The notes beneath the pieces were generated by a model. It was given only the letters and a program-made list of their open reading frames with translations. It had not been told where the DNA came from and made no database searches. A stretch of 64,000 nucleotides of DNA, taken from positions 1 through 64,000 of the forward strand of contig CAMEIX010000014.1 of the NCBI GenBank assembly GCA_945919075.1, written 5' to 3'. The stretch comes from an uncultured Lachnospiraceae bacterium (GTDB taxonomy: Bacteria > Bacillota > Clostridia > Lachnospirales > Lachnospiraceae). This document shows positions 7,725 to 59,111 of this stretch, piece by piece; positions within the stretch are counted from its first letter, which is position 1, and each line of letters begins with the position of its first letter. Both the position numbers and the translations under genes were made by a program.

Positions 7725-9401
7725 TTATTTTAACGCTACTACCTGATTGGCAGCAACTACAAGTGCCTTGATGGAACTCTTAATGATATCTTCATCGATT
7801 CCAACACCCCAATAAGTGGTGCCGCCTGCAACTACGCCTACAAAGGCTGCTGCCTTGGAAGAAGAACCCTTGGAAATAGCGTGTTCTTCGTAAACTGCCA
7901 GTTCATAATCCACATTAAAGAATTTCTTAATCGCATTGCTGACTGCATCGAGACGGCCGTTACCTGCCTGATTGACCTGATTCTCAACGCCGTCTTTTAC
8001 AATCTTAAGCTGTGTGGAAATTCCACCCACCTGAGAGAAATGGCAGTCCACAATATCGAATACCGGTTTCTTGTTAATATACTCCTCTTCAAACAACTGA
8101 TAAATTTCATCCGGCGTAAGTTCCTTATGATTCTTATCGGAAGCGGATTTTACAATGTAACGGACTTCATCCTTCATTTTATCCGGCAGGGAAATACCAA
8201 AATTCTGCTTCATAATGAAGGCAATACCACCCTTACCGGACTGGCTGTTAATACGGATAACATCGGATTCGTACTCTCTTCCCAAATCCACAGGATCAAT
8301 CGGCAGATAGGGAACGGTCCAGCGCTTGCCACTCTTCCCTTCTTCTCTCCATGCCATACCTTTCGAAATAGCATCCTGATGAGAACCGGAAAATGCGGTA
8401 AATACCAGGTCGCCGGCATAAGGAGTCCTTTCGTGAACATGCATACCGGTAAGTAATTCGTAAGTTTCCCTGATTTTGCTTATATTGGAGAAATCCAGTT
8501 TCGGATCCACACCATGTGTTACCATGTTCATGGCCACGGTAACAATGTCAACATTACCGGTTCTTTCTCCGTTGCCAAATAGGGTACCCTCTACCCGGTC
8601 AGCACCTGCAAGTACTCCAAATTCTGCATCACTGATACCGCAGCCTCTGTCATTATGAGGATGTACACTGAGGTTTACGGCATCTCTGTATTTCAGATTC
8701 TTATGTATATATTCAATCTGGCATGCAAAAACATGGGGCATAGCCACCTGAACCGTGGTAGGAATATTGATAATCACCTTGTTTTCCGGAACCGGTTTCC
8801 ATACATCCAGAACGGCATTACAAACTTCAACCGCATAGTCCACTTCCGTCTGGGAAAAGCTTTCCGGGCTATATTCGAAGGTAAAGTTTCCTTCTGTTTC
8901 GTCTGCCAGTGTCTTTAAGAGCTTCGCTCCTTCTACCGCAATCTTCTTGATTTCCTCTTTATCCTTTTTGAAAACCTGCTCTCTCTGGGCAACAGAGGTA
9001 GAATTGTAAAGGTGGATAACCGCACGGGGAGCACCCTTAACTGCCTCAAAGGTCTTACGGATAATATGTTCTCTCGCCTGAGTCAGTACCTGAATGGTAA
9101 CATCCTCGGGAATCATATTACGGTCAATCAGGGCGCGAATAAAATTGTACTCTGTATCACTTGCTGCGGGGAAACCTACTTCAATTTCCTTAAATCCCAC
9201 ATCCACAAGCATCTGGAAAAACTGCAGTTTTTCATCCAGTCCCATGGGCTCAATTAACGCCTGATTGCCGTCACGCAAATCCACGCTGCACCAGATCGGT
9301 GCCTTCTTAATTGTATCCTGCTTCACCCAGTCATAAGTCACTACAGGGGGTAAAAAGTAGGATTTCTCGTATTTTTCTTTAATTTCGTTCTCTGTCATCA
9401 T
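7725..9401 (-). CDS. leuA: 2-isopropylmalate synthase
   Basis: It condenses acetyl-CoA and 2-oxoisovalerate, the first committed step of leucine synthesis. The 558-residue length and the opening [20 protein letters not shown] fit the longer LeuA type (IPMS2). The HMGL-like TIM barrel shows [12 protein letters not shown] (metal and catalytic residues) and [12 protein letters not shown], and the C-terminal region matches the LeuA regulatory dimer domain. AGGAGG eight bases upstream sets the start; a second ATG follows immediately. It is single-gene and preceded by a leucine T-box, so it is induced when tRNA-Leu is uncharged. Confidence 0.95.
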
Positions 9402-9477
9402 TTCCCTGTCCTCCTTAAATTTCCCAATTTCTCACGGTTGCTGTTCTCGATTTTCTTCGAAAATCGGAACAAGTAAT

Positions 9478-9780
9478 AAAAAATCTCTACAAGGATGTTT
9501 TCATCCTTGTAGAGACGTAAATTTACGCGGTACCACTCTACTTCATGGTTTCCCATGCCCTCATTGGCTAAGCCTTCCTGTCACGGTGGATTCTCCGTCC
9601 GCTCCTACACAACCTGCTTTCTAAGCGCTTCTATTATATAAGTATATATAAGTCACGCTCCCAAAAGACTGTCTTCAGGCGGCTGCTCCAAGGCGAGTTC
9701 GCTGTCTGCTTCGATTGCCTCGCACCTTCCGGCAACTCTCTGAATCCTGCGCGCAGTTACTATTCCTCTTCTTCGCATTT
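9478..9780 (-). promoter_or_regulatory. Leucine T-box riboswitch
   Basis: The minus-strand leader of leuA contains all T-box landmarks in order: an AGTAA/AGAGAG stem I region, a specifier loop with GAACTC (specifier codon CTC, Leu, at 9695-9697) followed by GGAG, and the T-box TGGTACCGCG at 9526-9535. A 14-bp terminator stem (9484-9497 with 9502-9515) with six U closes it. Uncharged tRNA-Leu should pair with the specifier and the T-box and favour the antiterminator. Confidence 0.93.
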
Positions 9781-9806
9781 TATTGATTTCCATAATGTTA
9801 TCACAA
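9777..9806 (-). promoter_or_regulatory. Probable promoter of the leuA T-box transcript
   Basis: On the minus strand TTGTGA (9801-9806), an 18-base spacer and TAAAAT (9777-9782) sit directly before the T-box stem I. An alternative TTGTGC/TAACAT pair lies slightly upstream. Confidence 0.5.
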
Positions 9807-9851: not shown

Positions 9852-10358
9852 TTACTCCTGACCTATGTACTTTTCTCTGAAATAATCTGCCAGATAGCGG
9901 TTTTCTTCAAATTCCGGATTCTCACAGATTTTTTCAAGCCGCTCCCGGTACAGGGATGCCCGCCCGGCAAATTCTTCATTGTCTTCACATTTTTGAGCAG
10001 CCATTTCATAAATTTTATAATAGTAGCCGTTACTATACATACGTGCTCTTTCCCAGTAAGGTTCAAAGTCTTTTTCGTAGTCATCATACACCCAAAGGAT
10101 GGATACCAGCTCCGTAAAATTTCCGTTCTCAACCGTTCTGTCAGCACTCCTTAGACGATTGGACAAACTATTATCTTCAACATTTTCCCGAACCATGCCC
10201 AATGTATAGAAAAAAACAGAGAAAACCAGAATATTAACCAGTACAAGAATGGAGCAGAATACAATTTTTCTTACAATATGAAGCTGTCCCTTCTTTTTGC
10301 TTTGCCATTCCTTGAAATACAGAAAACCTAAGATTGCAATAAAAATCAGAAAAGGCAT
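9852..10358 (-). CDS. Two-span membrane protein of unknown function
   Basis: I do not recognise this 168-residue protein. Hydrophobic segments lie at about residues 2-14 and 29-52, with the KEWQSKKKG basic stretch between them. About 110 charged, aromatic-rich residues follow (many E, Y and R), probably a helical domain outside the membrane. It starts two bases after the stop of the upstream zinc-ribbon gene and is the last gene of the operon running from 15628. The tail resembles in style the C-terminal parts of the two neighbours, suggesting a shared family of helical tails. Function unknown. Confidence 0.65.
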   Translation of the reverse strand: MPFLIFIAILGFLYFKEWQSKKKGQLHIVRKIVFCSILVLVNILVFSVFFYTLGMVRENVEDNSLSNRLRSADRTVENGNFTELVSILWVYDDYEKDFEPYWERARMYSNGYYYKIYEMAAQKCEDNEEFAGRASLYRERLEKICENPEFEENRYLADYFREKYIGQE

Positions 10359-10360
10359 GA

Positions 10361-11035
10361 TTAATTTCCCCCTTCCAGTTTTTCATAAACCAGGGATACT
10401 AATCTGTCCCTTTCAGCACGCTCCAGAGAATAAGATGGATTTTCCTTTTCTCCATAAGCCAGAAAACGAAGTTCTTCCTCCGTAAAATCCAGATATCCTT
10501 TATAAAAGGCTTCGATAAAAAGCACATAATCCCGGTATTCTTCTGGATTTTCGGCTGTAGATACCTCCCGCATGACATCATAGGAGTAATCAAGCAGATT
10601 CTCCACATCATAACGGTTTATTTCTTCCTCATTTTCCACGCTTATTACAATATTCTCAGATGCTTCCACGAAATACTTAAACCTGTAAAACCCCGGATTT
10701 TTCTGCAGATATCCCAATTCCTCAAGGCATTTTTCTGCCTGACTTCCGGGCAGCATTTCCGCCTCTGTCCTGTCCTCACTCATGCAAAATAACCCAAAGG
10801 ATAATACAAGTACCACAATCGCGCATAATAGCAACCCCAGGTTGATTCGGGTAATCAGTTTAGACGCAATTTCTTTTTCCTTTAATTTCAGTATAATACG
10901 GGGTAGTTCCTTATTGCGCTTTATTTTTTCATCGACCTGTGCCTGAAACTCTGTATAGGATTTGTTTTCCCGGCCACAGAAAGGACACGTTTTTGTTAAG
11001 GAGCCTACTTCTCCACCACAGTATTCACATTTCAT
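10361..11035 (-). CDS. Zinc-ribbon membrane protein of unknown function
   Basis: The 224-residue protein opens with a zinc ribbon (C3, C6, C17, C20 in MKCEYCGGEV...CPFCGREN). A charged linker and one transmembrane span (about 64-85) follow, then an acidic, mostly helical domain of about 135 residues. The layout implies a cytosolic metal-binding head and an external C-terminal domain. ATG 11035 follows AGGAGG and overlaps the stop of the upstream paralogue-like gene by four bases (ATGA), so translation is coupled. No function is inferred. Confidence 0.7.
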   Translation of the reverse strand: MKCEYCGGEVGSLTKTCPFCGRENKSYTEFQAQVDEKIKRNKELPRIILKLKEKEIASKLITRINLGLLLCAIVVLVLSFGLFCMSEDRTEAEMLPGSQAEKCLEELGYLQKNPGFYRFKYFVEASENIVISVENEEEINRYDVENLLDYSYDVMREVSTAENPEEYRDYVLFIEAFYKGYLDFTEEELRFLAYGEKENPSYSLERAERDRLVSLVYEKLEGGN

Positions 11036-11694
11036 GGTTTCAGTTCCTCCTTAGTAAATCCGTACTCCTCCATTTTCGAAATCGTGCGTTCCTCAAACTC
11101 CTTTAAGACTTCTTCGTTTCCCAGAATCACATTATCGTTCCTGTTTTTCTCACATTCATCCAGCAAATCTATCGCACACTGCAAGGCTTCGGCCCGATAT
11201 TCCGCCGCTCTCTCTTCTTCTCCCGAAACGCCGTCATATTCCTCAAACCAGTTCAGATACTTAAGAAGACTCTCTTCTTTGTTCCATACGGACACCACTT
11301 CCTTGTATTTCCGATAATTTGCGCCGGTCGCACCTTGGTTCAGATAATCCTTTAATTTCCCATACTCTCCGTCCTCAAAGTACTGCTCCAAAATTTCCTG
11401 ATCTTTATTACGCTGATCATAGGACCGGGCTGCGGAAAATTGGCTATACACCACAACAAATCCGGAAACCATCAGAATAAGAATCAGTACGACAAATAAC
11501 AATTTGAAATAAAGTGAGGTTCCCCGTTTGATTACGCGCCCCGGCAGTTCTCTTTTTATTTCCTCTGCCTCTTTATCATAACTTTTTAATATGCTATGCT
11601 TCTTTTCCTTTGCCACTTTGGCATTTTCTGTATTACAATAGGGGCAATTTGACAGATGGTCTGCGTATTCCCCTCCACAGCTTTTACAAATCAT
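11032..11694 (-). CDS. Zinc-ribbon membrane protein of unknown function
   Basis: The 220-residue protein has the same plan as its downstream neighbour: zinc ribbon at the N-terminus (C3, C6, C17, C20), basic linker, one transmembrane span (about 61-84) and an acidic helical C-terminal domain. The two C-terminal domains share composition but little obvious sequence, so they are distant paralogues or functional analogues. It starts 49 bases after the EAL/beta-solenoid gene on the same strand and is likely co-transcribed with it. Function unknown. Confidence 0.7.
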   Translation of the reverse strand: MICKSCGGEYADHLSNCPYCNTENAKVAKEKKHSILKSYDKEAEEIKRELPGRVIKRGTSLYFKLLFVVLILILMVSGFVVVYSQFSAARSYDQRNKDQEILEQYFEDGEYGKLKDYLNQGATGANYRKYKEVVSVWNKEESLLKYLNWFEEYDGVSGEEERAAEYRAEALQCAIDLLDECEKNRNDNVILGNEEVLKEFEERTISKMEEYGFTKEELKP

Positions 11695-11743: not shown

Positions 11744-14700
11744 CTAAATCATGCCCTTGGGCAGATAAACACAGAATCTCTCTTCTTCAGGACAACGTTC
11801 TGCCTGATAGATATAAATCCCCTTTTCGGATTGAAGCTTCATGGCAAAGGAGTCCTCTTCGATTTCATGGGGTTCAAGTTCCTCCCCAAAGCGGTTTACC
11901 GCAGGAAGAACTTCATCCACGATGACATTTCCTCCTTCAATGATAACCGGTGTTTCCTTTCCGCCAATCTTACAGGGATTTGCGGATGCAAGGCTTACGC
12001 TGACGGTTCCTCTCTGAATATGCACGCTGCCCTTTCCGTCATAATTGCCAATACCGCTGATTCTCTCGCCTTCTCCGTATATTCTCAGATAATCCGCATT
12101 GCAGAAGATATCCACATCTCCGGTGTAAGAGCCCACACTCGCCGTCTGGGCACCGCGGGATGTAATCTCGATTTTGTGGCCCGCAAGCATCACCCTGCCG
12201 CTTCCGCCTTCCAAAACACCGATGGAGGTAGACCTTTCACCCTCGGACAATAGTTTCAGGGTTCCATTATTAACAAATGAAACGGTTCCTTCCAAAGAAC
12301 CGATACCGATAATTTCATTTGCAGTACAGCTCATTTCCAAATTTACGTCATCAATTGCAATATCTGAGAAACCATTTACGGAACCGATTCCTACTGCCGA
12401 AATAGCTCTTGCCTCTGCCTTAATATGTCCTCTCATTAAGTGTATTCGGGCATTGTTACCCCTGATACCTCCGCCGATACAGACTACTTTATCCCCATGA
12501 GAAGTAACCTCCAGATTACCTCCCATATCAATGACAATATTCCCGTAACCTTCGGAGTAACTTCCACCGATACATGCACTATTGTTCCGGTTTGCCATAA
12601 TGGTCAGATTACCCTCCCCACGCAGGACGAGTGCTGCCGTTTCCGGAACGCTGATTCCTTCTTTATGTAAAAAATTATCTCCCTCCAGTACAATATCTAC
12701 CCTGCTGTTTCTTCCAAGACGAATCGTAGCACCCGCAAGAGCCTTAATATTGGAGTCCTGCAAAATAAGTGTGGTTTGCGAATTGTCGGCAATCTCAATA
12801 TTCATACTGATGGTATGTTCTTTTTTCCCGGTTACCCGCACGGTCCCATTCCCCACGCGAATTAAGGTATTCTTATTTACGGCGAGTTCAAGAATATCCA
12901 GTACTTCCCCGTCTTTTGCTTCATAAATACGATTATCATTATCATAGCGTGCAAACTTGATATTCTGTGAAATGATATAATCCACAATGGCATGGTCGAT
13001 TTCCGGTATAATCGTTGCCGAAGGCCTTGCCAGATAAAAGCCCTGCAATAAGTCCACACCCAGTTCAATCAGTTTACACATTTCTTCAAAGGTTTCCACA
13101 CCCTCACCCAGTGTCAGAATGTTATTTCTGCGGGCAAATTCAATGGTATTTAAGACAAACATCTGCTTGTCCTTATCATTCTGAATATTATTTACCAGGA
13201 AATGATCAATCTTAATAACATGGGGTTTGTAGCGAAGCAGGTTGGCAATATTAGAATAACCGGTTCCATAATCATCAATGGCAAACTGGCATGCATTTTC
13301 TCCGTCAGACAGGGACAAAATCTGTTCAATTTCTTCTTCGGAAGTTTCGTTCTGCTCCGTAATTTCAATGGTGCAATCCTTAAATAAGTGCGAGTATTTT
13401 CGAATTAATTCGTTTTTGTCCGCAATATTTAAAAAGCGGCCCGGGATACTGTTTACAAAAAGCCGCTTTCCGGTAAACAGGTCATAATTCTTATCAAAGT
13501 ATTCCAGTACATTATTAAGTGTTGCATATTCAATATCGTAAGAACGTCCGTATTCATCCGCAATCTTTAGGATTTCCATAGGACTTAACTGCACATTCTT
13601 ATCCGTTCTCATCAGCGCCTCATAGCCATAAATCTGACCGGTACGCGCACTGACAATGGGCTGATAGTGGTATTGGAAAAGGTTACCGTCTACCAGAGAT
13701 TCAAATACATAGTACATTTCCTTGGCAGTCTGAATTTTGACGGCAGGGCCGGTTCCCAACTTCAGACGATTTAAATAGAGTTCGGAATTAGCAACCTTGA
13801 TGAGAGTTGCAATATCATTTTTCCAACCGGGAGTAGCCAGAGTACAGCCACAATTCACTTCCATGAAATAATCTTTTTCCTTGTTCTGGTTGTGGGGCTG
13901 CATCAGTTCATAAAAAAGTGCAATACCTTTGTTCAGTGCACTGTCCACTTCTTCGTTGGAATGCTCCGTATTCATCACCACAAAACTGTCGTCTGCTATT
14001 CTCGAAATAATTACATTGCACGGATTTGCAAGCTGCAAAGATTCTGCAACCAGACAAATGACCTCTTCAATTTCTTCAATACCGTAATTTTCATAAATAA
14101 ACTGGTATTTGGGAATGTTATATACGGAAACGGCAATATGATACTTTGAAAGATCCTCATAATTTTCATCCACATAAGAAACAAAGCCTTTCAGGTTCCA
14201 AAGCCCGGTCAACATATCCCTGTTTTCCATCTGACGCATATTTCCGGCAAGATACTGCTGTCTGGTTCGGCTGATAATAACACCGAAGGCCGAGTTCATA
14301 ACATTGCAAAGTCGATGAAGCCTGTGAATAGTTGCTGCCAGATTATCCGTTCTGACCGCATAATAGCCGCATACACTGTCTGAAACATGAACGGACTGAA
14401 AGATAAACATCTTTCCATCACCTAACTGTTTTTCAATATGGGGATACATGTCCTTTATAGAGAATATCTCCTGATTTTCCACTTCGTATATATTATTTCT
14501 GGAACTGGCAACCACCATATCCTTGGTAAAAGGCTCCTCTGCATGAGTACTTTCCTGCCTTGCCATCATCAGAAAATCACTGTTTATTGCTAAAATAGAA
14601 TCATTCAGTATATAGGTGAGCAGATTCTCGCAAAGCTGGGTATAATCCATACTTTTCAGTATACTGTCGGACAAAGCCATTACATAATTTTCATGAGCTT

Positions 14701-15628
14701 CGTTATCCACAAATTTCATGCTGATACGGTTTGCATATTCGCGGTAATCGGAAAAATCCATCTTCCTGCAGCCACAGGATTCACTGATTTCCATTTTCCA
14801 GATTTCTTCTGTTTTGTACGGCTTAACTTTCTTTTCCACTGCATCTACAATCATATGAAAGCATAATTTCCCCAGTGCTTCCACATCCTGACCTGCACTG
14901 GTGATTCTGGGATTATGAAACATAAAAATAGGTAGATTATCAAAACCTGTGACCAGTACTTCCTCCGGCACTCTGATGCCACGCTCTTTCAATCTGTCAC
15001 AAGCGGTAATTGCCATGGAATCATTGGCACAGATAATCGCTTCCGGTATCATACTGCGGTTGACCCAACGGTCAATTGCGTTGTTAACCGGACCTTCCCA
15101 ATAATCCCCATAGGCAATCATATCATTTTTTACAGTAAGACCATGTGCCTCCATAGCCTCTTTATAAAGTCGCAGACGGATGTCGGAATCCTTTTCCCCC
15201 TTAATACCTGCAAGGAAAAAAATCTTTTCTTTTTTATGTTCCTCTATAATATGGGACAATATCTGATTAAAGGAATTTTCCTGATTTTTCAGTACACAGA
15301 AACAGCCCTCTTTTTCGCTATACAGCGATAAAACAGGAATATTTCTCTCCTTTGCTTTACCAATCAGTTCCTGCACGATCGTCTTATCAAAAAACTGTTC
15401 TTCTTTTACCACCAGAATATCCACCACATCAAAATTAATCATTTTGTAGATGGATTTTGCACCTTCATCAAAACTGTCATTCTTATAAAAATCACGGAAG
15501 CTGTTGAATACCATAATGCGGTAATTTGTACCTTTTGTGGCATTGTAAAGTGCCTCCATAAAATTCTGCATCATGTAATCTTGAAATTTTGTAATACAAA
15601 CCGCAATTATCTTCTTATCATTAATCAT
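11744..15628 (-). CDS. LacI-type ligand domain, degenerate GGDEF, EAL phosphodiesterase and beta-solenoid fusion protein
   Basis: The 1294-residue protein has no signal peptide or membrane span. Domains in order: periplasmic-binding/LacI-type ligand domain without HTH (about 5-290); a linker domain, perhaps GAF-like (300-450); GGDEF domain with ADDSF at 545-549 instead of GGDEF (470-625); EAL domain (645-880) with all key residues visible: E670-A-L, N726, E755, D785-D786, K806, E842, E845, Q862; a beta-solenoid of eight repeats of about 28 residues, each beginning with an IG or VG step (905-1240); and a 55-residue tail. It should hydrolyse c-di-GMP under control of a small ligand. The solenoid is of a kind normally seen on secreted proteins. 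ATG 15628 has GGGAG upstream. Confidence 0.85.
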   Translation of the reverse strand: MINDKKIIAVCITKFQDYMMQNFMEALYNATKGTNYRIMVFNSFRDFYKNDSFDEGAKSIYKMINFDVVDILVVKEEQFFDKTIVQELIGKAKERNIPVLSLYSEKEGCFCVLKNQENSFNQILSHIIEEHKKEKIFFLAGIKGEKDSDIRLRLYKEAMEAHGLTVKNDMIAYGDYWEGPVNNAIDRWVNRSMIPEAIICANDSMAITACDRLKERGIRVPEEVLVTGFDNLPIFMFHNPRITSAGQDVEALGKLCFHMIVDAVEKKVKPYKTEEIWKMEISESCGCRKMDFSDYREYANRISMKFVDNEAHENYVMALSDSILKSMDYTQLCENLLTYILNDSILAINSDFLMMARQESTHAEEPFTKDMVVASSRNNIYEVENQEIFSIKDMYPHIEKQLGDGKMFIFQSVHVSDSVCGYYAVRTDNLAATIHRLHRLCNVMNSAFGVIISRTRQQYLAGNMRQMENRDMLTGLWNLKGFVSYVDENYEDLSKYHIAVSVYNIPKYQFIYENYGIEEIEEVICLVAESLQLANPCNVIISRIADDSFVVMNTEHSNEEVDSALNKGIALFYELMQPHNQNKEKDYFMEVNCGCTLATPGWKNDIATLIKVANSELYLNRLKLGTGPAVKIQTAKEMYYVFESLVDGNLFQYHYQPIVSARTGQIYGYEALMRTDKNVQLSPMEILKIADEYGRSYDIEYATLNNVLEYFDKNYDLFTGKRLFVNSIPGRFLNIADKNELIRKYSHLFKDCTIEITEQNETSEEEIEQILSLSDGENACQFAIDDYGTGYSNIANLLRYKPHVIKIDHFLVNNIQNDKDKQMFVLNTIEFARRNNILTLGEGVETFEEMCKLIELGVDLLQGFYLARPSATIIPEIDHAIVDYIISQNIKFARYDNDNRIYEAKDGEVLDILELAVNKNTLIRVGNGTVRVTGKKEHTISMNIEIADNSQTTLILQDSNIKALAGATIRLGRNSRVDIVLEGDNFLHKEGISVPETAALVLRGEGNLTIMANRNNSACIGGSYSEGYGNIVIDMGGNLEVTSHGDKVVCIGGGIRGNNARIHLMRGHIKAEARAISAVGIGSVNGFSDIAIDDVNLEMSCTANEIIGIGSLEGTVSFVNNGTLKLLSEGERSTSIGVLEGGSGRVMLAGHKIEITSRGAQTASVGSYTGDVDIFCNADYLRIYGEGERISGIGNYDGKGSVHIQRGTVSVSLASANPCKIGGKETPVIIEGGNVIVDEVLPAVNRFGEELEPHEIEEDSFAMKLQSEKGIYIYQAERCPEEERFCVYLPKGMI

Positions 15629-15663: not shown

Positions 15664-15693
15664 ATTATATCATATTACAAATTTGTACGTCAA
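15664..15693 (-). promoter_or_regulatory. Promoter of the EAL/beta-solenoid operon with palindromic spacer
   Basis: On the minus strand TTGACG (15688-15693), an 18-base spacer and TATAAT (15664-15669) with extended TGA. The spacer contains a perfect 12-bp palindrome, TACAAATTTGTA (15676-15687), a possible repressor site. Confidence 0.75.
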
Positions 15694-16165: not shown

Positions 16166-17620
16166 CTACTGAACCAGTTCATTTGCCGTGGATTCAAGTA
16201 CTTCCACATACTGTCTGATATTTCTTAAGATATCATTGTTGTTCACACTCTTCTCATAAGTAATCTGAGCATGGGCGGAAACCTCTTCGGAGATTGCGGA
16301 AATGTTCTGGATGCTTTCTACAATAACCTTGTTGGATACATCCAGCTGTTCTACGCTCTTTTCCAGTTCCTGTGCCATTGTGGTTGCATTTCTGGTCGCT
16401 TCATCCATGATACGGAACTGTTCTGCTGTCTGCATAACCAGTTTTTCCTGTTCACCAGTTCGGTCCAAAAGGGACTGGGTTGCTTCTCCTGTTTTGGAAA
16501 TGCGATCCGTAATATTATCAATGATGGAAGAAATGCTCTGTGTTGCCTGGGAAGTCTGATCTGCAAGAGAAGAAATCTCACCCGCAACTACAGAAAATCC
16601 ACGTCCTGCCTCGCCTGCTCTCGCTGCTTCAATGGAAGCATTCAGGGAAAGAAGGGCTGTTTTCTTGGTAATCTGATTAATCAGTGCAAGAATATCTTCC
16701 ATACTCTTGATCTGCTCTATCAGGGAATGCATCTCCTCGGAAACCAGACTGCCCGCCTGCCTGGACTGTTCCATGGAAGATACCAGACTGTCTACACTGA
16801 TGCGTCCGGTTTCTACGGAACTTGCAGTAGAATTCACATTGGAAAGAATCCCTTCTGAAGCATCCTTAACCATATCAATGTGGTTCTGAATTGCTGTAGT
16901 GCTTTCAATCTGTTCCTGAATGGCTTCTGCCGTTTCCGTGGAACCATTGCTTACTTCAGCCATGGCCATCTCCACTGCAGAAGAATTATCATACAAAGTA
17001 TCGGTTCCTGTCTTAATCTCTTCGCTCTGTTCCTGAATCACGTTTGCGGATTCCAGAATATGCTGGACAAGCTGGCGGTTCCTGTTTTCCTGAGCCTGAA
17101 TTTCTGCCACTTTATCTGCTGAAATTTTACTCAGGGTTTTGGAAGCCATTGCCGAGAAAAGACCTACAATAAAAATGACTGCCAACAAAATCTCGGTATT
17201 GGTTATGGCCTCTGCATCAAATTTATTCCGTGTGGCCAGATAAATTATATGAACAATGTTAATAACCAGAGCAGTCGCTGAGGCAAAAAGGGAATATTTA
17301 ATATCCGAATATATGGCGATTATAACAATAAACGGAAGAATATATGTAAAAGTATTATTAAGACCTGTAAACAGCACAAATACATAAAGAATACTGTATC
17401 CCACCAGATAAATGTAACGAATCATTTTAGATTCCTTATTCCGCATATACAGAAACTGGAATATGGCAAGTGGAATCAGGTTTAATGCTGCAAAGACCGC
17501 CAGATAATCAATCTTTCGGTTTCCTTTTATGCCCTCTAGTGCATAAGCTACCAAAAGAACCATACTCAAAACCCAATAAGAAATCGCTACTGTTTTGTTT
17601 TCCCTTGCTTTACTGCTCAT
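16166..17620 (-). CDS. Methyl-accepting chemotaxis protein, multi-span membrane type
   Basis: The 484-residue receptor has about six hydrophobic segments in its first 170 residues instead of a periplasmic ligand domain. A long coiled-coil methylation/signalling region follows, with the hairpin tip [20 protein letters not shown] and [12 protein letters not shown] that bind CheA/CheW. No clear HAMP domain is seen. The input is therefore likely membrane-linked or intramembrane. GAGAGG precedes the ATG. It has its own promoter and sits next to c-di-GMP-type enzymes, which suggests a local motility/second-messenger cluster. Ligand unknown. Confidence 0.9.
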
Positions 17621-17665
17621 AGTTTTCCTCTCTCCGTACCGGAAAACCGGTATATTTTCCTTAGT

Positions 17666-17694
17666 ATTGTATTACAAATCCATGTATTTTTCAA
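17666..17694 (-). promoter_or_regulatory. Promoter of the chemoreceptor gene
   Basis: On the minus strand TTGAAA (17689-17694), a 17-base spacer and TACAAT (17666-17671), in the 114-base gap after the HD phosphodiesterase gene. Confidence 0.7.
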
Positions 17695-17734
17695 CAAATT
17701 CCATAATGGCTTCCTATTCTTCTATGGCGAATCC

Positions 17735-18835
17735 CTACTCCTTGAAAATCGCCTCCGTATCCACGGCCTCTTTGGAATCGGGATACTGCTCCAAAACTTC
17801 TAAGAATTTTTCAAAATGCTGGTCAAAAATATCAATCAAATCCGGATCAAACTGTTTTCCGGACTGTGCAATAATTTCCACCCTTGCCTCTTCCGGTGTC
17901 CATGCCTCCTTATACGGGCGCCAGCTCACCAGGGCATCAAACACATCCGCAATAGATACACATCTCGAGGTAATGTCAATATCCTCGCCCTGAATATTTG
18001 CATAACCCTTCCCGTCAAATCTCTCATGGTGCTCATAGGCAATCCTCGCGGAAAGTTGCATTAACTCTCCCTCGGAATTTTCCAACATCCTTTTCCCGTA
18101 GAGAGTGTGCTTCTTGATAATATCATACTCCTCTTCCGTAAGCCGTCCCGGCTTCTCCAATATATGATGGGGAATCAGTATCTTTCCTACGTCATGCATC
18201 ATGGAAGCAAGTCCCACTTTCCAGACCACTTCCTCTTCGTAGCCCAGTCCCCTGCACAATATTTTCGTATACTCGGACACACGCTTTACATGCATTCCGG
18301 TTTCTTTGGACTGGCTTTCAATCATCTGGGACAGAGAAGTGATAATACCCTCCTGCTCGGACAAAAGTTGCTCATTCTTCTGAATCAGGGAACGAATCAA
18401 TTCCTGGATTTTCCCGGTCATACTTGTGCAAACCACAGCAATGGCTATATATTCCACCATTCTCGGAAGAACCCCGTAAAATAAAGTCCCATGAAGTGTA
18501 ACCAGCGGCTCGTCCGGCACTACTTTTAATTGAAGTGCCAGCAAATGCGAAACAAGCATTACCGGAAGGCCGATGAGCGCCGTATACCATACGCTCCTTC
18601 TGTCACAGTACAGACAGGACACCACAATCGGGAAAACCAGCATGATAATGGCATGGTATGACAAAAAGGCATACAATACCCCCGACATCAACACGATTAG
18701 TGTCAGTACCAAATAACGGACAAATAAGCCCTTACAGTGAAATACATTGTAAAAAACTGTGGGCAGCGCCAGTTTCAGATTTGCATTGGCCTCATATTCC
18801 TCTATTAATTGATTTCTTAACTTTAACAGCCTCAT
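17735..18835 (-). CDS. Membrane HD-GYP-like phosphodiesterase
   Basis: The 366-residue protein has about five N-terminal hydrophobic segments (40-140), a coiled-coil linker and an HD domain. Visible are H182, HD at 214-215 (SMMHDVGKI), H243, and HH at 269-270 in EHHERFDGKGY. The HD-GYP signature is GYA instead of GYP. Family members hydrolyse c-di-GMP to pGpG or GMP; activity on c-di-GMP is inferred, and another cyclic dinucleotide is possible. GAGG precedes ATG 18835. A TATAAT box on the minus strand lies at 18878-18883, without a convincing -35. Confidence 0.82.
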   Translation of the reverse strand: MRLLKLRNQLIEEYEANANLKLALPTVFYNVFHCKGLFVRYLVLTLIVLMSGVLYAFLSYHAIIMLVFPIVVSCLYCDRRSVWYTALIGLPVMLVSHLLALQLKVVPDEPLVTLHGTLFYGVLPRMVEYIAIAVVCTSMTGKIQELIRSLIQKNEQLLSEQEGIITSLSQMIESQSKETGMHVKRVSEYTKILCRGLGYEEEVVWKVGLASMMHDVGKILIPHHILEKPGRLTEEEYDIIKKHTLYGKRMLENSEGELMQLSARIAYEHHERFDGKGYANIQGEDIDITSRCVSIADVFDALVSWRPYKEAWTPEEARVEIIAQSGKQFDPDLIDIFDQHFEKFLEVLEQYPDSKEAVDTEAIFKE

Positions 18836-53247: not shown

Positions 53248-55851
53248 TTATTCTTCTGTATTTTCCTCAGTCTCTTCTTTATAAGTTTTATCTTCGTCTT
53301 CGAAATCGGAATCATCCATTTCTGATTCACCAACTGCTTCAATTGCTTCATCGATTGTTTCAAATTCCTGATTTTCGCTTACGATTTTCTCACGTACCTT
53401 TGCAATCTGCGCTACTTTTACACCTTCATCCAGGTTTATAAGTTTAACACCGGAAGTAATTCTTCCAAGGTGGGAAACTTCTGCCACACGAATCTGAATG
53501 ATAATGCCTTCTGTGGTAATCATCATGATTTCATTGTCTTCATTTACCGCCTTGACACCGATGACATCACCTGTCTTTTCGGTAATTTTGTAGCATTTTA
53601 CACCCTTACCGCCACGCTTCTGAACCGTAAATTCATCCAGAACCGTACGTTTTCCGAGACCATTTTCAGATGCAATAAGAAGGGATTCTCCCTGAGTATT
53701 CAGCTGCATACCTACAATGCAGTCGCCATCGGACAAATTCATTCCGATAACACCCATGGAAGTACGCCCGGTTGCCCGCACATCAGTTTCCTTAAAACGG
53801 ATACACATACCAAATTTGGTAACTAAAAAGATTTCACTGTCCTTATCGGTAACTTTTACTTCAATCAGTTCATCATCTTCCCTTAGATTAATGGCAGCAA
53901 GACCATTTTTTCGCACATTGCTGTATTCCATAAGGGGAGTCTTCTTCGCAATACCGTTTTTGGTAATCATGAAAAGATTTTTATTTTCATCATAATTCCG
54001 AATGGGAATCATGGCAGTAATCTTCTCACCGGGATTTAAATTCAGAAGGTTAATAATGGCAGTTCCTCTTGCGGTTCTGCCGGCTTCCGGAATTTCATAA
54101 GCCTTTAACCTGTAAACTCTTCCCTGATTGGTAAAGAAATTCAGGTAATGATGAGTGGTTGTCATAAGAAGATCTTCTATATAATCCTCATCAATGGTCT
54201 GCATTCCCTTAATTCCGCGGCCTCCACGGTTCTGTGCACGGAAATTATCTACGGTCATACGCTTGATATAACCTAATTTTGTCATGGCAATAACGGTATT
54301 TCCTCTGGGAATTAAGTCTTCCATGGAAATATCAAATTCATCAATACCAATTTTACTTCTTCTGTCATCACCGAATTTATCAGCAATCGCAGTCATCTCT
54401 GTCTTAATGACTCCCAAAAGTAATTTTTCATCAGCAAGAATGGCTTTCAATTCTGCGATTTTTGCAAGCAGTTCTTTATGTTCATTCTCCAGTTTTTCTC
54501 TTTCCAATCCGGTCAGAGCACGAAGCCTCATATCCACGATTGCCTGAGCCTGTACATCGGTAAGAGCAAATCTTTCCATCAGGCGTTCTTTGGCTTCCTG
54601 TGTATTGGCACTGCTGCGGATAATGGAAATCACTTCATCGATATGATCAAGGGCAATCAGTAAACCCTGTAAAATATGGTCTCTTTCTTCTGCTTTATTG
54701 AGATCATATTTGGTTCTTCTGGTAACTACTTCCTTCTGGTGATCCAGATAGGCTTTTAACATATCTAATAGGTTCATAACTTTCGGCTCATTATTCACAA
54801 GAGCAAGCATAATGATACCAAAAGTATCCTGAAGCTGTGTATGCTTATAAAGATGATTTAATACGACATTGGCATTTACATCTTTACGAAGTTCAATTAC
54901 GACACGAATACCTTCACGGTTGGATTCATCACGAAGATCGGTAATGCCTTCGATTTTTTTCAGTTTAACCAGTTCCGCAATCTTCTGAATCAGATTTGCT
55001 TTGTTTACCATATAAGGAAGTTCGGTCACAATAATCTGATTTTTTCCGTTGGGAAGAGTTTCAATATTGGTAATAGCCCGGACTCTTACTTTGCCGCGGC
55101 CGGTTCGATATGCTTCTTCGCTGCCTCTGGTACCTAAAATAAGTCCACCTGTGGGAAAATCGGGTGCTTTTACAATTTCCAATACTTCATCAATTTCGGT
55201 TTCCCTGTTTTCATTGACTTTATTATCAATAATTTTAGCTACAGCTCCCACCACTTCCCGAAGATTATGAGGGGGAATATTGGTAGCCATACCTACTGCA
55301 ATACCGGTAGTACCGTTTACCAAAAGATTGGGATAACGGCTGGGAAGGACAACCGGCTCCTTCTCGGTTTCATCAAAGTTTGGTACAAAATCAACCGTAT
55401 CTTTGTTAATATCAGCCAGAAGTTCCATGGAAATCTTGGAAAGTCTTGCTTCGGTATAACGCATTGCCGCTGCACCGTCACCATCCATGGAACCAAAGTT
55501 TCCGTGACCGTCAACAAGAGGATACCTGAAGTTCCAGTCCTGCGCCATATTAACCAAAGCACCATAAATGGAACTGTCACCATGGGGGTGATATTTACCC
55601 ATTGTATCACCGACAATACGTGCACTTTTACGATGCGGCTTGTCGGGACCGTTATTTAATTCAATCATGGAATAAAGCACTCGTCTCTGAACCGGTTTCA
55701 AACCATCCCTTACATCAGGAAGTGCTCGCGCCGCAATTACACTCATAGCGTAATCAATGTAGCAGTTTTCCATGGTCTTTTTTAAATCGACTACATGAAT
55801 CTTATCATATTCTACTGCCTGGGGCTCATTATCAAAAATTTTGTCATCCAT
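53248..55851 (-). CDS. gyrA: DNA gyrase subunit A
   Basis: The 867-residue protein has the winged-helix breakage-reunion domain with catalytic Tyr in [12 protein letters not shown] and a C-terminal six-bladed wheel containing repeats such as [17 protein letters not shown] and QKRGGKGVK (the GyrA-box). The quinolone-region loop reads [13 protein letters not shown]: residue 97, equivalent to E. coli Asp87, is Gly. An acidic tail of about 45 residues ends it. It lies 23 bases after gyrB in the dnaN-yaaA-recF-gyrB-gyrA order. Confidence 0.97.
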
Positions 55852-55874
55852 TTTCTATTTGACACCTTTCCGAA

Positions 55875-57980
<2,106 letters not shown>

Positions 57981-58025
57981 TTATCCTCCATTCCGCCGCG
58001 CAAGCGGCCGCGACTTTCGAAAATA

Positions 58026-59111
58026 TCAATTTTCTGAAGTCACAACACCATTTACAACCTTAAAAATCTTATTTACTTCAAATCTGTTATTTACAAACTC
58101 TTCCAAACCGGTACAGGTTATTATAGTCTGTATATCACCGATACTGTTTAAAAGATAATTCTGTCTGTTACTGTCAAGTTCTGATAAAACATCATCCAAT
58201 AAAAGAATCGGAGTGTCTTTCGTTATTTTTTTTACTAATTCAATTTCTGAAAGTTTCAAAGATAAAGCAGCAGTCCTCTGCTGGCCCTGGGAACCGTATT
58301 TTCTGATGTCAATCCCTTTATTCAGGAAAGAAAAATCATCCCTGTGGGGGCCTACCGTAGTCTGCTTTAACTTAATATCCCGATCCTGATTATGAAAAAG
58401 TTCTCTTTCAAAATCTTCAATCTTTACATCCGGCTCATAATCTATCATGATTTCTTCTTTGCCGCCGGACAACTTTTTATGAATATCAAATATGATTTCA
58501 TTTAATTGTTTAATAAATAATTCTCTTCTTTCAATGATTTTACTTCCGAAAGAAACAAGCTGGGAATCCCATATATTTAATGTTTCCCTTAGTTCAGGCT
58601 GAAAAGATATATCTTTTAACAATTTATTTCTCTGATTCACGATTTTGTTGTAGTGATTCAAATTATAAAGATAAAAATTGTCTAACTGACAAAGCTCCAT
58701 GTCCACAAATTTTCTTCTTTCCGCCGGACCATTTTTAATAATACTTAAATCCTCGGGAGAAAAAAATACAACATTACAAAGCCCAAGCAAATCTGCCGCC
58801 TTTTTGATTTTATTTCCATCAATGGCAATTCCCTTGGTTTTACTTTTTCGAAGATGCATATCCACTCTGGATTCAATCCCATCTCTTTCCACATAAGTAC
58901 GGATATGTGCTTCCTCTTTATTAAAATTTACAATTTCTTTGTCTTTACTGCTTTTGTGAGATTTTGTAGTGGCCGCTACATAAATTGCTTCCAGAATATT
59001 TGTCTTACCCTGGGCATTGTCCCCATATAAAATATTGGTTCCTTTGTCAAATTCCATGGTAAGGTATTCATAATTTCTGTAATCGGCCAGTTCCAGTCTT
59101 TTGATAATCAC
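58026..59111 (-). CDS. recF: DNA replication and repair protein RecF
   Basis: RecF helps load RecA at single-strand gaps. The 361-residue SMC-like ATPase has Walker A at 30-37 (GDNAQGKT), the ABC signature YGSQGQQRTAALSLK and Walker B ILLLDDVLSELD. It follows yaaA by five bases, as in Bacillus. Confidence 0.96.
   Translation of the reverse strand: MIIKRLELADYRNYEYLTMEFDKGTNILYGDNAQGKTNILEAIYVAATTKSHKSSKDKEIVNFNKEEAHIRTYVERDGIESRVDMHLRKSKTKGIAIDGNKIKKAADLLGLCNVVFFSPEDLSIIKNGPAERRKFVDMELCQLDNFYLYNLNHYNKIVNQRNKLLKDISFQPELRETLNIWDSQLVSFGSKIIERRELFIKQLNEIIFDIHKKLSGGKEEIMIDYEPDVKIEDFERELFHNQDRDIKLKQTTVGPHRDDFSFLNKGIDIRKYGSQGQQRTAALSLKLSEIELVKKITKDTPILLLDDVLSELDSNRQNYLLNSIGDIQTIITCTGLEEFVNNRFEVNKIFKVVNGVVTSEN

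Follow-up and report, generated by a model that had tools for sequence, protein, structure and literature searches.

The window analyzed here is a stretch of 64,000 nucleotides of contig CAMEIX010000014.1 (assembly GCA_945919075.1) from an uncultured Lachnospiraceae bacterium. It contains a gene (positions 15628 to 11744, minus strand) that is a single unbroken frame of 1294 residues and encodes a putative phosphodiesterase of cyclic di-GMP (c-di-GMP), in which the EAL catalytic domain is followed by a long beta-solenoid. Enzymes of c-di-GMP metabolism are usually described with their sensory domains first and their catalytic domain last, and the question raised by this locus is what a solenoid placed behind the catalytic domain might do. 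The comparisons described below are best explained by a single fusion of a beta-helix directly behind the EAL barrel, after which the beta-helix was mostly kept.

Domain organization of the solenoid phosphodiesterase

The original prediction placed a LacI-type domain, a degenerate GGDEF domain (ADDSF), an intact EAL domain, and a solenoid in a single chain, and this was confirmed by the reading frame, the Pfam matches, and the catalytic residues. The EAL domain (residues 647 to 869; positions 13022 to 13690, minus strand, as are all of the domain coordinates given here) was defined by Pfam and the structure model and matched PF00563 with an E value of 3e-42 and a score of 145.1 bits (cut-off, 31.3). 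Ten positions that we take to be the metal-binding and catalytic positions of EAL domains (E670, N726, E755, E758, D785, D786, K806, E842, E845, and Q862) were all present. Nine of them were identical in 61 of 61 sequences, and E670 was found in 60 of 61, the remaining sequence (P0041) having Lys. Judged by these residues, the EAL domain looks like an active phosphodiesterase. The EAL barrel, the full catalytic set, and a degenerate GGDEF domain ahead of them are features that the protein shares with the GGDEF-EAL tandem phosphodiesterases (PF00563).

Residues 870 to 895 (12944 to 13021) form a short helical junction according to the structure models and the spacing of motifs, and the solenoid follows. 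AlphaFold2 predicted an eight-turn right-handed parallel beta-helix (predicted local distance difference test score [pLDDT], 94.6; predicted template modeling score [pTM], 0.90), and the predicted structure matched solved members of that fold; thus, the eight repeats with IG steps that had been read from the sequence correspond to eight turns in the model. Based on the alignment and the model, the region consists of an N-terminal cap and first coils that hold a conserved GIxVP motif (residues 896 to 1000; 12629 to 12943), the eight IG turns (residues 1001 to 1235; 11924 to 12628), and a C-terminal beta tail that only part of the family has (residues 1236 to 1294; 11747 to 11923). No Pfam name above the cut-off was assigned to residues 890 to 1294, and among the NCBIfam matches listed (25 of 37) none reached its cut-off or covered the helix.

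Ahead of the EAL domain, residues 1 to 285 (14774 to 15628) resemble a ligand-binding domain of the LacI/PurR type without a helix-turn-helix. The Peripla_BP_3 match in Pfam (residues 133 to 273; E value, 7.4e-23) indicated that the ligand core was present, and residue 2 of the protein aligned with position 56 of PurR; therefore, the DNA-binding part, the N-terminal helix-turn-helix, is absent. The middle region (residues 286 to 463; 14240 to 14773) is perhaps GAF-like: it had no Pfam match in the window protein, and relative P0061 gave a weak GAF_2 match (E value, 0.0093) that was under the cut-off. In the GGDEF domain (residues 469 to 619; 13772 to 14224), which was identified via Pfam and a motif tally in relatives, ADDSF stands in place of the GG[DE]EF motif of diguanylate cyclases (PF00990). 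A hydropathy scan found no signal peptide or membrane span, as no 19-residue segment reached 1.6 and the first 60 residues peaked at 0.52; this bore out the earlier description of the protein as a cytosolic type.

An assembly error or a frameshift that merged two genes near residue 890 was named in the original prediction as a refuting alternative. We found no support for such an artifact and rejected it as exceedingly improbable, since the homologues rule it out: the same architecture was present in many records, including seven named genome records (L015 and L017 to L022) in which the LacI-GGDEF-EAL-solenoid order was found.

Distribution and descent of the EAL-solenoid pairing

When the solenoid region was used as a query, 60 protein clusters were recovered; a profile search of shorter proteins added 3 more, and a distant family member used as a query gave 17 clusters, 16 of which were new. 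All 79 of the distinct clusters found with solenoid queries (P0002 to P0080) contained PF00563, and P0002 was identical to the window protein. A cytosolic solenoid without an EAL domain was not found by the profile search, which covered proteins of about 220 to 709 amino acids and returned 3 matches, all with EAL; the protein searches score only candidates that share most words and obey length limits, and absence from them is no proof. The N-terminal architectures in the family were a LacI-type domain with GGDEF, a LacI-type domain without a GGDEF match, GNAT-GGDEF, and GGDEF alone; in 11 of the 79 clusters, the chain had one or two hydrophobic spans near its start. The genome from which the window was taken has a second solenoid copy (L002/L100; 1115 amino acids) that has five spans and a pair of GGDEF domains, both with an intact motif. 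Hence, of the earlier suggestion that this was a new architecture, the part that stood was the EAL-solenoid fusion itself, which is real; the fusion is not a one-off, as there are at least 79 protein clusters, several N-terminal architectures, and two copies in the one genome. P0056 carries a GNAT acetyltransferase domain and GGDEF-EAL-solenoid in a single chain. The cluster of a distant member, P0075 (870 amino acids), covers 5732 member sequences, one form being very frequent in the protein collection.

Ten named genome records held members of the family: two metagenome-assembled genomes (MAGs) of Ruminiclostridium sp., one of Roseburia sp., and seven labeled Clostridia or Clostridiales. An animal gut site or feces appeared in the titles of five of the ten. 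Genomes were also counted with a 13-sequence solenoid profile (E value, 0.001; matches below 1e-20 were called strong), the window's genome being included each time. Of 150 genomes from the window's family, 16 had a match (12 strong); the numbers were 23 of 391 for its class (13 strong) and 3 of 299 for its phylum (2 strong, both from the window's family). The profile found no match in the one same-genus genome searched, and a scan of genome contigs with the single window protein as the query found no relative. Putative solenoid phosphodiesterases occur in Clostridia of several families.

The pairing was strict at the loci with strong matches. The EAL domain was directly ahead of the solenoid in 38 of 38 such loci (28 from searched genomes and the ten named records; strong matches on short contigs of G006 and G073 are outside this set). 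The spacing from the QGxY motif of the EAL domain to the GIxVP motif of the solenoid was 129 residues in 64 of 99 sequences, 127 to 134 residues in 87, and 143 in one; the patterns were not found in 11, and the protein and locus sets that make up the 99 overlap partly. Thus, the spacing was near-fixed, whereas the N-terminal sensors varied. EAL identity and solenoid identity were correlated (r of 0.71 over 1225 pairs), as is expected of domains that were inherited together.

The EAL domains that carry solenoids also grouped together. In a careful tree of 87 rows, which was sampled partly by solenoid presence, one clade of 42 rows (support, 100/96) held 40 members with a solenoid (39 full-length and L106, which has only the cap) and two members without one. 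A wider sample comprised 83 of 83 EAL domains from eight genomes, all of which had been chosen for carrying a solenoid copy. A model of the solenoid-clade EAL domain separated this sample into 15 domains that scored at least 299 bits and 68 that scored at most 166, and 12 of the 15 had a solenoid. A quick tree of 111 rows (the 83 domains and 28 more solenoid EALs) gave a clade of 43 rows (Shimodaira-Hasegawa-like approximate likelihood ratio test support, 93), 40 with a solenoid (truncated in one of them) and three without. The proteins without one (L143, L144, and L186) ended within about 30 residues of the EAL model, and no significant solenoid remnant was detected in any frame. The solenoid label requires four changes on the quick tree, which can be interpreted as a single gain followed by three losses, with L106 as one additional truncation. 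In the sampled genomes, the solenoid phosphodiesterases differ from other EAL phosphodiesterases in forming a separate, well supported clade and in having an added C-terminal beta-helix.

The nearest relatives of the solenoid outside this clade came from the weak profile matches. Such matches were present in 15 genomes, and we examined 12 loci from 11 of them (G011, G159, G253, and G394 were left out). A solenoid match lay in an open frame at 9 of the 12 loci, one of which (L106) had an EAL domain; L104, L108, and L111 had no solenoid match in an open frame at an E value of 1e-3. Seven of the eight EAL-less relatives, the exception being L102, started with an export-type hydrophobic segment. 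PF18889 (Beta_helix_3) was detected in six of the seven EAL-less relatives that were scanned and in none of 11 EAL-linked proteins. When segments of seven EAL-less proteins were compared to the EAL-linked solenoids using hhalign, the two profiles matched with a probability of 99.2% and an E value of 9.3e-20 over 259 columns, the cap included. These data agreed with the earlier proposal that the solenoid is akin to those of secreted proteins, and the profile comparison indicates that the EAL-linked solenoid shares descent with Beta_helix_3 proteins that look secreted. We infer that the transfer would have been from the surface to the cytosol. The window protein differs from the Beta_helix_3 proteins in that it has no secretion signal by hydropathy, its solenoid sits behind a cytosolic EAL domain, and the short PF18889 model does not match this solenoid. 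A PF18889 search of the window's genome gave no match, nor did it give one in any control genome, so that result was uninformative. A study of fibrillar adhesins (PMC8286594) places PF18889 among the stalk domains, without a known adhesive partner.

Possible roles of the beta-helix

The conservation of the solenoid pointed to structure. All 22 of the invariant columns are of nonpolar residues or Gly (18 Gly, 2 Ile, 1 Pro, and 1 Leu). Weighted alignment of 50 sequences showed nine polar or aromatic positions that were kept in at least 60% of the sequences and two (Y902 and N985) that were kept in more than 85%; none was invariant. Nonsynonymous-to-synonymous substitution ratios (dN/dS; NG86 method) were 0.11 to 0.33 for the solenoid (computable in six of seven pairs) and 0.055 to 0.099 for the EAL domain (computable in four of seven pairs). 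Where synonymous change could be estimated, the solenoid is under purifying selection that is weaker than that on the EAL domain, as judged by these ratios. We tried and set aside the idea that the solenoid is an enzyme; this was judged unlikely, as no conserved polar constellation was found. Together, the conservation pattern and the selection therefore fit a structural contact module and not an enzyme.

Under a different idea, the beta-helix would recognize a cell-wall precursor or a polysaccharide in the cytosol and thereby tune the EAL domain. The solved matches (Vag8, AlgE epimerases, NosD, PfbA, and tailspikes) share 6 to 14% identity with the solenoid, and polysaccharide lyases, epimerases, and tailspikes account for many of the structural matches. 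These named proteins are extracytoplasmic or phage proteins, and many of them are enzymes; in addition, the ligands of LacI-type domains are mostly sugars or nucleotides. However, a shared fold proves no function, few polar or aromatic positions of the solenoid are kept, and the window protein has no match to a Pfam carbohydrate-enzyme family. Unlike many of the matched proteins, which are enzymes, the window solenoid has no conserved enzyme-like site. We therefore regard a glycan or polymer sensor as quite improbable. A plain Foldseek search of the solenoid returned nothing below an E value of 0.001, and with the EAL domain and the solenoid together all of the matches listed (50) were EAL structures. 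Bactofilins and similar proteins are beta-helix scaffolds inside the cell. They resemble the window protein in having a beta-helix, which here is fused to a signaling enzyme, and kinship is not established; a bactofilin was absent among the structure matches listed and is not thereby excluded.

The reading that we tentatively favor is that the protein is a cytosolic, ligand-gated c-di-GMP phosphodiesterase in which the beta-helix serves as a rigid, noncatalytic scaffold that sets EAL assembly. A small molecule would bind the LacI-type domain, and the middle region and the degenerate GGDEF domain would pass the ligand signal to the EAL domain. The beta-helix, carried on the EAL domain by the short helix, would act as a protein-contact rod; it would set the assembled state of the EAL domain through chain pairing or through packing on the barrel, and the assembled state would in turn tune c-di-GMP hydrolysis. 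EAL dimerization is reported to raise turnover (PMC5301497). Several findings weigh against an assembly role. The EAL-plus-helix model had a pTM of 0.76 compared to 0.90 for the helix alone, and the relative orientation of the two is tentative. By both dN/dS (in pairs whose synonymous sites are mostly saturated) and conservation, the solenoid evolves more quickly than the EAL domain. In addition, 3 of the 15 clade members in the eight genomes have no helix, and L106 (3995 to 7072) retains only the solenoid cap; thus, the helix appears to be dispensable in some lineages.

The natural losses count against an essential role and therefore raise the standing of a simpler explanation, in which the helix merely stabilizes the EAL domain as a passive structural cap and has no signaling role. 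The structural nature of the invariant solenoid residues would also be expected of such a cap. We nonetheless consider it unlikely, given that 12 of the 15 clade members retained the helix (in genomes picked for having a copy) and that the window's genome encodes six other EAL proteins, all of which do without a solenoid.

A possible alternative to the scaffold is that the distal face of the beta-helix docks onto a partner, such as another signaling protein or a landmark at a pole or on the membrane, and thereby positions the phosphodiesterase to hydrolyze c-di-GMP locally. Conservation dropped from the EAL-near end outward (1.65 bits for the cap, 1.67 for the first turns, 1.35 and 1.17 for the distal turns, and 0.88 for the tail), as lineage-specific partners would cause. 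The eight genomes contained 6 to 18 EAL genes each, which makes local signaling plausible. There is also a precedent: according to work on PdeB and HubP (PMC9061725), a noncatalytic domain both places and switches on a GGDEF-EAL phosphodiesterase. However, no candidate partner gene was found beside the solenoid phosphodiesterases across the 38 loci (E value, 1e-8; simple gene caller; flanks of up to 10 kb). One member of each recurrent neighbor group was scanned for domains. The recurrent neighbors were an ABC-transporter family (10 of 38 loci, at widely varying distances), a short-chain-dehydrogenase-like group (8 of 38), and groups restricted to one subfamily or genus. A NAGPA (phosphodiester glycosidase) group was located just downstream on the opposite strand, 56 to 67 bases off, in four loci of one subfamily (L015, L017, L020, and L022). 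A DUF4236 group preceded the phosphodiesterase gene on its own strand, at a distance of 38 to 162 bases, in six loci from a single genus (L090, L091, L093, L094, L096, and L097). Because precedents are known for both EAL dimerization and domain placement, we favor the assembly scaffold and rank docking next.

In a bolder version of the scaffold, stacking or pairing of the beta-helices would build rods on which numerous EAL domains are brought together, and c-di-GMP would be destroyed on this internal, bactofilin-like assembly, whose activity ligands would switch via the N-terminal sensors. In that case, a surface stalk domain would have been domesticated as an intracellular signaling scaffold. 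We consider this rod assembly doubtful, including the domestication that it implies.

Surroundings of the gene and significance

A promoter-like site (TTGACG-18-TATAAT, with TG preceding the second hexamer; 15664 to 15693, minus strand) precedes the phosphodiesterase gene, which may thus have its own promoter; the site was recognized by its consensus match alone (11 of 12). Three tandem genes for single-span membrane proteins lie downstream on the minus strand. The first (11032 to 11694) encodes a protein with a CxxC..CxxC ribbon, starts 49 bases past the phosphodiesterase stop, and is probably cotranscribed with the phosphodiesterase gene; the second (10361 to 11035) encodes another zinc-ribbon protein and overlaps the preceding gene, and the third (9852 to 10358) encodes a small protein. 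None of the three (window 9852 to 11694) had a Pfam match above the cut-off. The original prediction had suggested that the solenoid might be a platform for these membrane proteins, an idea that was not upheld, as none of the three genes recurred at the 38 solenoid loci (E value, 1e-8; simple gene caller; flanks of up to 10 kb).

Genes for a methyl-accepting chemotaxis protein (MCP) and an HD-GYP-like protein (HD_5 match) lie directly upstream on the same strand (16166 to 18835). A T-box leader (Rfam RF00230; 94.7 bits) precedes a gene at 7725 to 9782, presumably a 2-isopropylmalate synthase gene, and a relative of that gene (about 51% identity) lies just downstream of the phosphodiesterase at L098 (9433 to 11097) and L099 (9209 to 10975). 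Genes at 53248 to 59111, which we take to be gyrA, gyrB, and recF, suggest that the replication origin is probably close to the window. One weak match to the c-di-GMP-I riboswitch in the window scored 31.4 bits against a gathering score of 35 and lay inside the gyrB-like gene; it was taken as chance. In the genome as a whole, a single c-di-GMP-I riboswitch exceeded the gathering score, PilZ was matched four times, and EAL was matched eight times, which indicated that c-di-GMP signaling is present. Three loci of this genome (G000; L003, L004, and L007) contain open frames of 640 to 664 amino acids with matches to the window protein in its LacI-type and GGDEF regions. They differ from it in that their GGDEF motif is intact and an EAL motif was not found, and they are probably cyclases with the same sensor design.

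Among the titles and abstract openings listed by searches of the open-access literature (subscription papers and preprints being outside the search), none dealt with an EAL protein joined to a beta-helix or beta-solenoid. Two papers that mention both a beta-helix and EAL do so in separate contexts. The recurrence of the pairing across many Clostridia may point to a mode of c-di-GMP control that has not been described.

The analysis marks about 400 residues that have no Pfam match above the cut-off. They form a large partner behind the EAL domain in Clostridia, one that is old and has mostly been retained, and their nearest kin look like surface stalks. The EAL domain and the beta-helix form a defined module, for which L143, L144, and L186 (no helix) and L106 (cap only) provide natural comparison proteins. 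The effect of an output-side scaffold on a phosphodiesterase thereby becomes directly testable. One fold, moreover, appears to serve in extracellular as well as intracellular proteins.

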